Program-made: the position numbers and the translations under genes
In this document: piece after piece, positions 338 through 25,907 of the stretch
Layout: each line of letters opens with the position of its first letter
Numbering within the stretch: the first letter of the stretch is position 1
Source of the DNA: Phaeobacter piscinae
Lineage (GTDB): Bacteria > Pseudomonadota > Alphaproteobacteria > Rhodobacterales > Rhodobacteraceae
Assembly: GCF_002407245.1 (NCBI RefSeq)
Contig: NZ_CP010681.1
Location: forward strand, 1,426,001-1,490,000
Reading direction: 5' to 3'
DNA length: 64,000 nucleotides
The notes under the pieces: model-generated
What the model was told of the DNA's origin: nothing
The model's input: only the letters and a program-made list of their open reading frames with translations
The model's database searches: none

Positions 338-4707
<4,370 letters not shown>

Positions 4708-4730
4708 TCTCGTCCCAGCGTCGAGGGAGT

Positions 4731-4765
4731 ACAGAAAACGCGGCATCCGTTGTCGGCGTTTCTGT
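4731..4765 (+). terminator. Possible weak terminator after recG (imperfect hairpin)
   Basis: ACAGAAAACGC (4731-4741) pairs with GCGTTTCTGT (4756-4765) with one bulged base and a 14-base loop. No long T run follows, only TCGCTGTTCC, so it may be a weak terminator or a structural element. It sits between recG and the GTTC array. Confidence 0.35.
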
Positions 4766-4769
4766 CGCT

Positions 4770-4828
4770 GTTCCTGTTCCATGTTCTTTCGTGTTCGCAA
4801 ATGTTCTCATAAAGTTCTTTACAGGTTC
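4770..4828 (+). promoter_or_regulatory. Array of seven GTTC half-sites including two overlapping LexA-type SOS boxes
   Basis: GTTC occurs at 4770, 4776, 4783, 4793, 4803, 4814 and 4825. The last three are spaced exactly 11 bases start to start. This gives two overlapping copies of GTTC-N7-GTTC (4803-4817 and 4814-4828), the established LexA recognition motif of alphaproteobacteria. The 4783, 4793 and 4803 copies are spaced 10 bases apart (GTTC-N6-GTTC). A TTTACA that could serve as a -35 element lies inside the second box, but I cannot place a convincing -10. The array ends 70 bases before the ATG of the small membrane-protein gene, whose promoter it most likely covers. Confidence 0.7.
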
Positions 4829-4898
4829 CGCTGGATATGAGAACAAATAGGCAACAAGACGCCAGAGAGCGATAGCAAGACAGACAGGAGGACGTACC

Positions 4899-5021
4899 AT
4901 GATGACCCAAATCAAGACGACTGTTCAGAATGCCCAATCGACACTGCTGCAGGACGCCATTGGCGCGGCAGCGCTGGTTGTGATGCTGGTGGCGGGTTTG
5001 CACCTGCCCGGCCTGCTGTGA
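4899..5021 (+). CDS. 40-residue single-pass membrane peptide, probably SOS-regulated
   Basis: This small gene starts with ATG ATG at 4899, eight bases after a strong Shine-Dalgarno AGGAGG. It ends at TGA 5019-5021. The peptide begins MMTQIKTTVQ with a polar, possibly amphipathic first half (residues 1-19). One hydrophobic segment follows (about 20-37, AIGAAALVVMLVAG) and the protein ends HLPGLL. I do not recognise a named family. The GTTC-N7-GTTC array immediately upstream suggests LexA control. Small SOS-induced inner-membrane peptides are known: SidA inhibits division in Caulobacter and TisB depolarises the membrane in E. coli. By analogy this could be a division inhibitor or a membrane-active peptide. 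The function is inferred from context only. Confidence 0.65.
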   Translation: MMTQIKTTVQNAQSTLLQDAIGAAALVVMLVAGLHLPGLL

Positions 5022-5039
5022 TGCGACCGACCGGCCAGC

Positions 5040-5216
5040 TGTGAGGTTTTAGATTTCCTGATCGCACTCTTTATGCCGGACGGGGCCGCCTGTCCCAAGC
5101 CTGCCCGGTTTGCCTGCCGGTCTGGCCGACCTGCCTCAGGTCAACAGGTCCCGTTCGGGTCCCGCATGAGAGAGCATACTGCCGCCGCCACCCCCTCGGG
5201 TGTGCGGCGGTTTTTT
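5040..5216 (+). ncRNA. Hairpin-rich region ending in a terminator: candidate small RNA or structured 3' UTR
   Basis: The roughly 300 bases between the small membrane gene and the convergent scaffold gene hold no credible reading frame but several hairpins. These are GGTC-tggcc-GACC and GACCTG-cct-CAGGTC near 5120-5145, then CCCG-tt-CGGG near 5150-5165. A strong terminator ends the region at 5182-5216. This could be the 3' UTR of the small-protein mRNA or an independent small RNA. I see no promoter that decides between them. The signal recognition particle RNA core is absent. Confidence 0.3.
5182..5216 (+). terminator. Rho-independent terminator
   Basis: CCGCCGC-CACCC pairs with GGGTG-TGCGGCGG with a short bulge, followed by TTTTTT at 5211-5216. 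It would end the transcript of the small membrane-protein gene or of a small RNA downstream of it. Confidence 0.75.
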
Positions 5217-5323
5217 CGTGTGGTTCGTGGAATATGGATCCGACGACCGCCGTGCGCGGATGTCAGGGCTGCGTCGTAGCCACGCAGCTTGCGGGCCTGT
5301 GGTCAGGCTTGAGCGCAGACCGC

Positions 5324-5776
5324 TTAGGCGCAGGTCTGTTCCTGATGGGTCTGCATCGCCTCAAAGGTGGCATCCAGCGCCAGCAGGATCGAGGCGTGGC
5401 GGTTCTTGAACTCCCGCGCCGGGATCAGCACCTCAAACCCGTCAAAAGGTGCATCCGGGACTGGCCCGTCTTCGGTCAGCATCGCCTTCAGCTGCTGGCG
5501 GGCCTGCGCGACCTCAGGCAGGGTGCGGCCAAGGATGACATCACCCACAACTGCGGCGGAGGCCTGACCCAGCGCGCAGGCTTTCACATCCTGTCCAAAG
5601 GCGGCGATGGCGCCCTCCTTGATCTGAAGATCCACCGTCACGGTCGAGCCACAGAGGGGGGAGCGTTTTTTCACGGTCACATCCGGGGTGTCGAGCCGGT
5701 CCAGATGCGGAATATCGGCGGCCAGCGCCAGGATCCGTGCGGAGTAGAGTTTTATCAGATCAGTCTCGCCGGACAT
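5324..5776 (-). CDS. SufU/IscU-like iron-sulfur scaffold protein, third cysteine absent
   Basis: The protein belongs to the NifU N-terminal/SufU scaffold family, which holds or relays nascent Fe-S clusters or zinc. The start at MSGETDLIKLY (150 residues) fits the family better than an upstream ATG. Cys42 (SPLCGS) and Cys67 (KACALGQAS) match the first two conserved cysteines. At the usual third position the protein reads NRHASILLAL, with His127/Ala128 where an R-x-Cys-A motif is expected. One further cysteine is near the C-terminus (Cys149). It is divergent from hisI. Because a ligand is missing, a role as a classical scaffold is uncertain. Confidence 0.75.
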   Translation of the reverse strand: MSGETDLIKLYSARILALAADIPHLDRLDTPDVTVKKRSPLCGSTVTVDLQIKEGAIAAFGQDVKACALGQASAAVVGDVILGRTLPEVAQARQQLKAMLTEDGPVPDAPFDGFEVLIPAREFKNRHASILLALDATFEAMQTHQEQTCA

Positions 5777-5835
5777 GGGGTACCTCGGGCTTTCCCTTAT
5801 GCGCTGTTCCCAATACATAGGGGGCCAGTTCCCAG

Positions 5836-23314: not shown

Positions 23315-24217
23315 TCAGGCTGATGTTTCCTGGTCCAAATACCTAGGCAGACGCCCGGCAGCATCCAGAATATTGATGTAGTTGGCGCAAAAGATCACTG
23401 CAGCGCCCAGCAAGATCCAGTGGTTAAGCGCTTCACCATAAATCAACATTCCGGCCACAGCGATGGTGGGCAGGCGAGCGAAATCGATGGGCACGACAAC
23501 AGTGGCCGGAGCAATAGAGAGCGCCTTGGTCATGCAAAAATGCGCGGCCAACCCGGCGCAGCCGATGATCAGCAACCAAAGTGCCGTTGCGGCATTTGGG
23601 ATTGCAATTACCCCGTCCCAGCCAGATATCGCCAGACCCATTGCCAGTTGCATCAGGGTGAGCCACAGCAGGATGGAGCTGATCGGCTCATGCCGGGTCA
23701 GCCGCTTGGTAAACATGATGGTAAGCGCGAAGAAGACAGCAGAGCTGGCCGCAGCGATCACGCCGAGGTTCAGGGTCTCTGGGCTTGGGCGCGCCACGAT
23801 CAGGATCCCGATAAAACCAAGAGCCGCCGCCAGCACGCGCGGTTTTGTCAAAGCTTCGCCCAGCAGCAGCGGTGACAGCATCAACACCCAGAGCGGAGAG
23901 GTGAATTCCAGCGCAAAAACCTGTGCCAGCGGGATCAGGGTCACAGCAAAAAACCAGAGGTTCTGCCCTGTGAAATGGGCCGCGTTGCGGATGAGGTGCA
24001 GGCCCAGCCGGTCGCGCCGCACCTGTGGCCAGCTGCCCGTGGCGGTCAGAACCACGACGACGATCACCAGGCCGACAGCACTGCGGTAGGTCATGATCTC
24101 AAACGTGTCGAGGCTCAAACCCGCCTCCCGTCCGGCAATCGCCATTGAGGAGAAAGAAATAATCGCCCCGATCATCCAGATCGCAGCCGTCCCAATCGGT
24201 CGGTCGTTCAATTCCAT
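23315..24217 (-). CDS. DMT-superfamily (EamA) transporter
   Basis: The 300-residue protein has ten predicted membrane segments in two EamA repeats, for example AIWMIGAIISFSSMAIAG and LGVIAAASSAVFFALTIMF. EamA proteins export or import metabolites; the substrate is unknown. ATG 24217, preceded by GAGGGGCAG, was chosen over an adjacent GTG. It runs in the same direction as the porin gene, about 107 bases upstream of it, and may be transcribed separately. Confidence 0.85.
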   Translation of the reverse strand: MELNDRPIGTAAIWMIGAIISFSSMAIAGREAGLSLDTFEIMTYRSAVGLVIVVVVLTATGSWPQVRRDRLGLHLIRNAAHFTGQNLWFFAVTLIPLAQVFALEFTSPLWVLMLSPLLLGEALTKPRVLAAALGFIGILIVARPSPETLNLGVIAAASSAVFFALTIMFTKRLTRHEPISSILLWLTLMQLAMGLAISGWDGVIAIPNAATALWLLIIGCAGLAAHFCMTKALSIAPATVVVPIDFARLPTIAVAGMLIYGEALNHWILLGAAVIFCANYINILDAAGRLPRYLDQETSA

Positions 24218-24326
24218 CACTGCCCCTCATGCGCCATTCTAACGGGCAGAAGGGGTCAGTTTTCAACTTAGGTCAAGCTATGTTCGCCGCGCGGTCCAGT
24301 GCCGGGACACTGATATGCCGTGACAG

Positions 24327-25907
24327 CTATTCGGCAGCAACCCTCCCGGTCGCCGCGCACTGGCGTGGCAGGGCTGGAACATCGAGCCGGTTCCCGCGCT
24401 GGATAAAGGCCAGGGCTGCCTCTTCGGCATCGAAATTCACCCGTGAAAGCAGTGTTTCCACCTCAGCAACAAGTGTATCCGTTATATTGCCATTTTGCGG
24501 TGATGCATTCGCCTTGGGTGGCAGCTTTGGGTGCCCTTTATGTCCTAGCGCCCGAAGCAGTTTCGCCGCTCCATCCGGGGTAACGGCGTCTTCCAATGTA
24601 GACTCGATGAATTGGAGCTGACCACCATAGATATGTTTATAGTAGGCATATCGCGCCTCCATTTCCAACGCATACCAGATCGCGCTGCCGACATCTCCCA
24701 AATGCTTCAGAGGAGCCGGATCCACAATCTTGTTGTGATAATCGGGATGCAGGTACCATTGCCAAGGGATGGTGATATTGAAGAAATCATTGCGCACGAC
24801 ATAGCTTGCGATCTGTTTGGCAAGGTTGCGACGCAGGATGATGATGGTGGTGCGCGGCGCAAGACCGTGGTCAATAAGGGCCTCAATGAGTCCGCACTTT
24901 CCTAAGGTGTGATTGCTTTCAGCGTAGGGCGCTTGAAGCTCACTAAGCTTGCCCTCCCAAAAATCGCAGAGAGGTCCGTTCATGCCGTAGGTGTTGAAGT
25001 GCCTCATATGGCCGATACTGGGCAGGCGGGTGCCATAGGCATCAAGGCCAAGGGGTTCATGCACTGACGGAATATTCAGGTTATCGCTAAGAAATCGCGC
25101 GAGCCAGGCGGTGCCGGTGCGCCCTGCAGAGAGAGTGAAGATGAAATCGGGCTGAGAGCTATCTGACGGGGCGCTGACTGAGGGGGTGTCGCCGGACGCA
25201 CGAGGGGGGGCATGCTCGGCTGTGCCGGGGGCTGGCGTTGGATTTGGGCGCGTGTAGCCGAACCGGGCAATTTCGGATGCGGCTTCCTGTTCAATCAGAT
25301 CAGCTGTATCGGGATGCTTGGCGAAGAGGGTTGCCGGATCGGCGCCACGTTTGGGACGAAGTGCGGCCTTGGCGCTTAGGCTTGAGAACCGCGCCCAGAG
25401 GTCATCGACACCCAGCGCGTTGACATCCTCCTCAAGATGTTCGTATCGCAGGAAGATGTCGGGGCTGTTCGGCCCACCCAGCGGCGCGATACGACGGTTC
25501 TCGCTCAAAACGCTGCGGAAGTTCTCGACAAACAGATCAAATGGAATGTTGCGTTTGTCCATGCCCTCCCAGTAGTAGCGCGAGATAATCGCATCATAGG
25601 GATCACGCCATATCGTGATCTTGGTGTAACTCTCCCAGATTTCCTGCGGAACAGCGGCGCGGATCTGCCCGGCGGTCATGTGATTGACGAACGCCTGCTT
25701 GCCCTCATTTCCATCTGGCCAGGTCTGGGTTTGATGGTTCTGAGGCCCCGGGTAGCTCAATGCCTTCCGGATCTCTTCATCCTTTGGGCTGATCGGCGTA
25801 ATGATGCTGTTTTCGTCGCAATAACTGGACAGTGCGATCTCAAATGAGGTTCCGCCAACTTTCTTTGTCTTGATGAAAATAAGCTTGAGCGGATGGCAGA
25901 TGATCAT
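24327..25907 (-). CDS. Two-domain sulfotransferase-like protein
   Basis: The 526-residue protein appears to carry two sulfotransferase folds. The first (about 1-220) has a 5'-phosphosulfate loop IFIKTKKVGGTSFE (10-23) and a 3'-phosphate segment IWRDPYDAIISRYYW (Arg101, Ser109). A Pro/Ser/Ala-rich linker spans about 221-254. The second (about 255-526) begins FIFTLSAGRTGTAWLA (255-270), with a matching IIILRRNLAKQIASYV segment. Such enzymes move sulfate from PAPS to carbohydrates, lipids or other acceptors. The acceptor is unknown, and the two domains may act on different groups. It stands alone with its own upstream region. Confidence 0.75.
   Translation of the reverse strand: MIICHPLKLIFIKTKKVGGTSFEIALSSYCDENSIITPISPKDEEIRKALSYPGPQNHQTQTWPDGNEGKQAFVNHMTAGQIRAAVPQEIWESYTKITIWRDPYDAIISRYYWEGMDKRNIPFDLFVENFRSVLSENRRIAPLGGPNSPDIFLRYEHLEEDVNALGVDDLWARFSSLSAKAALRPKRGADPATLFAKHPDTADLIEQEAASEIARFGYTRPNPTPAPGTAEHAPPRASGDTPSVSAPSDSSQPDFIFTLSAGRTGTAWLARFLSDNLNIPSVHEPLGLDAYGTRLPSIGHMRHFNTYGMNGPLCDFWEGKLSELQAPYAESNHTLGKCGLIEALIDHGLAPRTTIIILRRNLAKQIASYVVRNDFFNITIPWQWYLHPDYHNKIVDPAPLKHLGDVGSAIWYALEMEARYAYYKHIYGGQLQFIESTLEDAVTPDGAAKLLRALGHKGHPKLPPKANASPQNGNITDTLVAEVETLLSRVNFDAEEAALAFIQRGNRLDVPALPRQCAATGRVAAE

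Follow-up and report, generated by a model that had tools for sequence, protein, structure and literature searches.

Introduction

SidA of Caulobacter crescentus is an SOS-induced division inhibitor and a very short membrane peptide with a single span, and the SOS-regulated TisB of Escherichia coli is also a short membrane peptide. DinQ of E. coli is described as an SOS-regulated, toxic single-span peptide (PMC3567139). Among regulatory RNAs, sX13 of Xanthomonas has been reported to act through C-rich loops, its targets carrying G-rich motifs close to start sites (PMC3771888). In Rhodobacter sphaeroides, RSP_7527/UdsC is reported to combine a small ORF and an sRNA from the 3'UTR in one transcript of ~300 nt, with an RpoHII-type promoter and a mature sRNA of 67 nt (PMC9779115, PMC8625941, PMC6238624). 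Pos19 of the same species is presented as a small coding RNA which combines a translated ORF with regulatory action, is dependent on RpoE, lies between cxp and fadB on chromosome 2 and is reported to be absent from other species (PMC5036791). SOS-type membrane peptides and dual-function RNAs are each known, but singly.

The locus described here was found in a stretch of 64,000 nt of Phaeobacter piscinae DNA, analysed as a whole (the window). It shares with SidA an alphaproteobacterial host, a LexA-type promoter and a short single-span membrane peptide, a likeness of description and not of sequence, and it differs in the structured RNA that follows the peptide and in its location behind recG. 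TisB and DinQ resemble the Phaeobacter peptide in being short membrane peptides under SOS regulation (for Phaeobacter, a damage-type promoter as judged by sequence), whereas the conserved helix face and the family-wide single copy of the latter set it apart. The Phaeobacter RNA has stable stems with C-rich loops in common with sX13, but unlike it follows a peptide gene. The likeness to RSP_7527/UdsC, a small ORF and a 3' RNA on one transcript, is again descriptive, and the promoter type and mature sRNA length reported for UdsC differ from the present unit. Pos19 is comparable as one RNA with a small ORF and regulatory action (which for Phaeobacter is inferred), but its RpoE dependence, its cxp-fadB location and its reported confinement to one species differ. 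The recG gene is not mentioned in the available parts of the three RSP_7527/UdsC papers, nor in R. pomeroyi and Paracoccus sRNA papers. Literature searches limited to CC-licensed PMC papers listed none that was recognised as describing a recG-linked peptide-RNA unit, RSP_7527/UdsC being a possible exception.

Genomic Location and Distribution

The constant upstream neighbour of the unit is recG (2617–4707, plus strand). A scan of named genomes returned 201 stretches encoding a relative of the peptide, from which 80 loci were kept (81 with the window). In all 80 the peptide is preceded, on its own strand, by the C-terminus of recG, with 100 to 504 bases (median 147) separating the end of recG from the peptide ATG. 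The order behind recG is fixed, namely promoter, peptide ORF and structured RNA, and all three parts are conserved.

At E<=1e-3, 244 of 295 Rhodobacteraceae genomes (217 of the 260 good ones) gave a match to the peptide, one in each. A class-wide draw gave a match in 4 of 289 genomes, all four being Rhodobacteraceae. No match to the peptide occurred in phage and plasmid collections, and a mobile origin was rejected on this basis. The first-pass annotation of this DNA had proposed that the peptide and its upstream box be sought behind recG in other Rhodobacteraceae, and both were indeed found there, the GTTC at offset -11 (defined below) being present in 79 of the 81 loci.

Beyond the RNA lies a convergent ORF (5324–5818, minus strand), which presumably encodes an iron-sulfur scaffold (NifU-like) protein. 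The terminator of the RNA stands between this gene and the peptide-RNA unit and could serve both.

Features of the Peptide

The ORF at 4899–5021 (plus strand) encodes a 40-residue peptide and is preceded by the Shine-Dalgarno sequence AGGAGG at 4886–4891, the strong ribosome site that had been noted earlier. A single-sequence query retrieved 29 relatives at E<=1, while a 27-row profile retrieved 262 from the protein database at E<=0.01 and a divergent 8-row profile retrieved 152. Relatives are mostly of 39–42 residues among the matches listed (the best 120 of 262 and the best 120 of 152), and none of those listed carries a precomputed Pfam domain. Pfam and NCBIfam models were run on four members, of which three matched nothing and one gave, in each library, a match far below the cut-off. 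The expectation that gene callers would easily miss so small an ORF was partly right, although several relatives have been deposited as 'hypothetical protein'.

Evidence for translation comes from the pattern of substitution. Codon analysis was carried out on 76 stop-free frames of 120 nt (the window and 75 of the 80 loci), and pN was lower than pS in 75 of 75 comparisons of relatives' frames with the peptide ORF of the window. Mean entropies at codon positions 1, 2 and 3 were 0.80, 0.39 and 1.38, respectively. The peptide is under purifying selection, with clear coding constraint.

A 42-row alignment shows no variation at residues M1, D19, G22 and L34 and very little at K6, L26, L30 and P37; G22, L26, L30 and L34 would fall on one face of a helix. 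Hydropathy analysis identified one hydrophobic segment, and the AlphaFold2 model is a single helix spanning residues 2–39 (mean pLDDT 83.6), in agreement with the earlier description of the ORF as one hydrophobic helix. The product is accordingly a short single-span membrane peptide of the SidA kind in its build.

Promoter Architecture

Seven GTTC half-sites lie between recG and the ORF, as first observed, starting at 4770, 4776, 4783, 4793, 4803, 4814 and 4825 (spacings 6, 7, 10, 10, 11 and 11). This is the densest 59-bp GTTC stretch on the plus strand of the window, with seven copies against 0.2 expected (Poisson 3e-9, a value for that stretch alone, uncorrected for its choice as the densest); the densest 59-bp stretch on the minus strand has four. 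The bare motif GTTC-N7-GTTC was rejected as evidence, being enriched neither in the window (2 found, 1.39 expected) nor genome-wide (94, compared with 91 for the backward control). As it is as common as chance would have it, the motif alone proves nothing, and the case rests on conservation.

A conserved promoter block precedes the peptide ORF in the 80 loci. Offsets were counted from the GTTC at 4814, and the alignment was anchored on positions 0 and +27/+28, an anchor present in all 80 loci. Operator 1 (GTTCTCATAAAGTTC, 4803–4817, plus strand) is of the LexA type and is the best matrix site of the window (score 19.2); its GTTC at -11 is the one conserved in 79 of 81 loci, and its spacing is N6 instead of N7 in two loci (L095 and L096). 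Upstream of it are two phased GTTC half-sites (4783–4796, plus strand), of which the one at offset -31 is present in 50 of the 81 loci and the one at -21 in 72. Operator 2 (4841–4855) is a reverse LexA-type site, on the minus strand, which reads GAAC-N7-CAAC on the plus strand and is the second-best site of the window (14.6). Its GAAC is at +27 in 79 of 81 loci and at +28 in the other two, the CAAC at +38 is 96–100% conserved per position across the 81 loci, and in three divergent relatives (L281, L283 and L284) the site is a perfect GAAC-N7-GAAC.

The first-pass annotation had described two overlapping GTTC-N7-GTTC boxes. Both exist in the sequence, but only that at 4803–4817 is conserved. 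The other, at 4814–4828 (plus strand, matrix score 8.6), requires a GTTC at +11 which is present in fewer than 3 of 81 loci, and it was rejected as an operator. From the sequence, the second operator appears better placed at 4841–4855.

Between the operators is TTTACA (4818–4823, plus strand), presumed to be the -35 element, of which TTTAC is 96–100% conserved per position in the 81 loci. A scan of 4690–5330 found no consensus sigma-70 promoter and no consensus -10. Two terminator-like sites lie upstream of the peptide ORF at 4741–4770, against a mean of 1.0 in shuffles. A promoter can be read on the minus strand (TTGTTC-N17-TGTAAA), but it was set aside, since the conserved elements are oriented oppositely and such a promoter would face the end of recG.

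Similarity to lexA and recA Boxes

A 21-column matrix was built from 24 distinct lexA, recA and SRAP boxes of Rhodobacteraceae, boxes from other families being excluded. Its two best sites in the window are 4800–4820 (plus strand, 19.2) and 4838–4858 (minus strand, 14.6), which contain the two operators; the third-best scores 10.9. Among the 80 loci the peptide promoter ranks first in 78 and second in two, with a mean score of 19.4; outside the promoter the best site averages 7.3, counting loci that have one above 2 there. Inside the promoter, the forward GTTC-N7-GTTC scores highest in 46 loci, the reverse GTTG-N7-GTTC in 34. The earlier proposal of a LexA-type promoter before a membrane peptide is therefore well supported by sequence; its operator pair was misplaced, and control by LexA is not certain.

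The genome of P. piscinae encodes LexA (C1:1704623), the gene having its own box, and GAACATGCGTAGAAC and GAACAAGAGGCGAAC are found upstream of lexA and recA. In many recA promoters of the Rhodobacteraceae a forward AATGTTCTC box faces a reverse box resembling GAACAAGAGGCGAAC; the peptide promoter shares this layout of a forward AATGTTCTC box opposite a reverse GAACAA...AAC box. In one of these (L199, upstream of position 1501) the sites are GTTC-N7-GATC forward and GAAC-N7-GAAC reverse, and the box starts are 22 bp apart, compared with 38 bp in the peptide promoter. The phased 10-bp half-sites further upstream in the peptide promoter were not seen in the lexA and recA boxes examined.

Among 20 other motif regions of the P. 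piscinae genome, LexA-type boxes were noted in L150 (~1025), L153 (~957) and L156 (~1027). The ORF behind the last was confirmed to encode a SRAP protein, and we take those behind L150 and L153, from their resemblance, to encode MmcB-type and radical-SAM proteins. Within the window, two overlapping weak LexA-type sites (24268–24299, scores 10.0 and 10.9) sit between the ORFs at 23315–24220 and 24327–25907, both on the minus strand. In Dinoroseobacter shibae, excerpts of a published study list computed LexA sites for lexA, recA, dprA, pde2, pilus, flagella and GTA genes, and recG is not mentioned in those excerpts (PMC6473078).

Structured RNA

The first-pass annotation had overlooked a structured RNA downstream of the ORF which extends to 5216 and accounts for roughly half of the presumed transcript. 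This RNA (5054–5216, plus strand) was identified by folding and by a covariance model, contains CUGYC motifs and would form the 3' part of the transcript. It ends in a terminator hairpin (CCGCCGC...GCGGCGG and a T run, 5182–5216, plus strand), which is invariant or nearly so in a 40-row alignment and paired in RNA folds, although a simple terminator scan did not list it. The same hairpin and T run close the stretch after the stop codon in most loci (window and 40 of the 80 loci examined). That stretch is 174–276 nt long in 78 loci (79 of 81 being measurable, and the 34 nt obtained for L053 a mismeasurement by the script).

In a plain MAFFT alignment of 40 sequences, RNAalifold predicted 19 pairs, 13 of them with two-sided changes; these correspond to the outer stem and the terminator, the inner hairpins not emerging from this alignment. 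Single-fold z-scores were -2.83 for the window and -4.21 for L113. The covariance model (R1) was built from 22 sequences, the window not being in the training set, and matches the window at 5054–5216 with 75.7 bits (E 4e-19), the next match in the same genome having 25.8 bits. It matches 81 of 82 given sources at E<=1e-7. The structure-fitted alignment has 75 distinct rows; 92.6% of its cells pair, and two-sided changes are seen in 30 of 37 pairs, with a covariation score of 0.408 compared with 0.160 when shuffled and at most 0.085 when slid; these pair counts and scores come from an alignment that leans towards its own structure.

Under stricter filters the RNA was found in 195 of 295 Rhodobacteraceae genomes at E<=1e-5. 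Of these, 188 are also peptide-positive (compared by eye), and in the other seven a divergent match to the peptide is present (E 1e-10 to 0.009). Each RNA carries on average 3.25 copies of the motif CTGYC (0.92 after shuffling), and in 70 of 79 RNAs the mean probability of being unpaired is higher for the motif than for the RNA body (average 0.63 vs. 0.44). Conserved stems and exposed C-rich motifs, the marks of a C-rich-loop regulatory RNA, are thus both present. A search of Rfam gave no match at threshold. The best hit was sX13 (RF02232) with 19.9 bits (E 0.21), and as this is below the gathering score of 50 the Phaeobacter RNA is not a member of that family. By analogy with sX13, the RNA probably acts on G-rich leaders of other mRNAs through its CUGYC-rich unpaired parts. 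Complements of the loops, counted in the 64-kb window only, were uninformative on targets (GGGACAGG once, GGACAGGCAG not at all and GAGGCA 15 times).

Occurrence in Genomes without LexA

The LexA DNA-binding domain was detected in 278 of 295 Rhodobacteraceae genomes and in 253 of the 260 good ones. The peptide is absent from four of the seven good LexA-less genomes (G035, G089, G196 and G224), compared with 39 of the 253 with LexA (Fisher p 0.016, which may be confounded as some of these genomes are small). A second peptide profile gave nothing convincing in these four. The figure of 39 is an upper one, since a retry of five LexA-bearing 'absent' genomes (G007, G010, G020, G021 and G029) recovered the peptide clearly in G021 and weakly in G007 and G029, the two weak matches having the promoter visible.

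The other three good LexA-less genomes (G179, G099 and G189; loci L277, L269 and L273) keep the peptide and both operators, so that no decay of the operators after loss of LexA was seen in any of the three. A search with the P. piscinae LexA protein at E<=1e-5 found nothing in them, and its sole hit among all seven good LexA-less genomes was a partial one in G089, covering the second half of LexA. The 400 kb of G179 that were examined include recA and do not include lexA; upstream of recA there is no GTTC-N7-GTTC, only the decayed box GAACAAAAAGGGAAT (matrix score 10.7). In a separate draw of 26 genomes, a recA box was present in 19 of 21 genomes with LexA (G001 being the twentieth) and in one of five without it (G038 but not G014, G041, G042 or G046). 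Taken together, these counts suggest that recA boxes tend to go with LexA, and that the boxes of the peptide promoter can outlive it.

Discussion

On balance, the evidence somewhat favours a Rhodobacteraceae-wide unit in which a LexA-type promoter drives one transcript yielding a partner-binding membrane peptide and a C-rich-loop regulatory RNA. From the sequence of the boxes, control of this promoter by LexA appears likely, but sole control is not certain, as three good LexA-less genomes keep the boxes. Their retention there, the decayed recA box of G179 and the absence of recA boxes from four of five LexA-less genomes of the other draw would agree with the phased GTTC half-sites next to the -35 being read by another regulator, the resemblance to LexA boxes being partial or the site being shared by both proteins. 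Phasing at 10, 10 and 11 bp is in keeping with this. On the other side, the layout resembles that of a recA promoter and the boxes resemble those of lexA, and two response-regulator motifs considered as readers of the array, CenR TGA-N8-TGA (PMC9275681) and ChvI TTGC-N3-GCAA (PMC9731502), were rejected as their reported forms do not match. A different regulator is the main rival reading, though the less probable one. A broader model, in which a near-universal dual-function unit of the Rhodobacteraceae is read by LexA and by a second regulator that retains the array after LexA loss, and couples DNA repair to a partner-binding membrane peptide and to an RNA whose C-rich loops act on many mRNAs, is put forward as speculation and is doubtful.

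Regarding the products, it is rather unlikely that the RNA is the main product with the peptide as a mere leader, or that the RNA is just the stable 3' end and terminator of the mRNA for the peptide and does not act on other mRNAs. The conservation of motif-rich unpaired parts while the stems vary does favour a role for the RNA itself, but the coding constraint on the peptide and the divergent peptide match in every one of the seven genomes that have the RNA but had fallen short of the initial threshold for the peptide argue against a leader. Structure would be expected of a protective 3' end as well; the enrichment and exposure of CTGYC exceed what a plain 3' end needs. Far less probable is a depolarising toxin of a type I toxin-antitoxin system similar to TisB or DinQ, as might be proposed for a short hydrophobic peptide behind a damage-type promoter, DinQ being a precedent (PMC3567139). 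The conserved helix face, with D19, G22 and L34 invariant, suggests a specific partner, and one match per genome with none in phages or plasmids is unlike mobile toxin modules. By analogy, a partner-binding role of the SidA type fits the conserved face better than a TisB-type pore.

Under the favoured reading of a LexA-type promoter with two products, LexA bound to the facing operators at 4803–4817 and 4841–4855, with the phased half-sites upstream, would silence the promoter between them, and DNA damage would free it. One transcript of roughly 370 nt may then be made. Its first half would be translated into the 40-residue inner-membrane peptide, whose conserved face (D19, G22, L26, L30 and L34) may dock, much as with SidA, on a partner in the membrane, most likely one that belongs to the envelope or takes part in division. 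The second half would fold into the multi-hairpin RNA, whose CUGYC-rich unpaired parts may pair with G-rich mRNA leaders as those of sX13 do, acting either inside the whole transcript or after cutting.

If RSP_7527/UdsC proved orthologous, part of the Phaeobacter unit would already be known by that name. A peptide matching no model of Pfam or NCBIfam and an RNA matching no family of Rfam occur together behind a damage-type promoter in most of the sampled Rhodobacteraceae, the large family to which the roseobacters belong. The LexA-less genomes offer a natural test of other readers of the promoter, and the peptide-RNA unit is a direct, testable candidate for a damage response of the Rhodobacteraceae.
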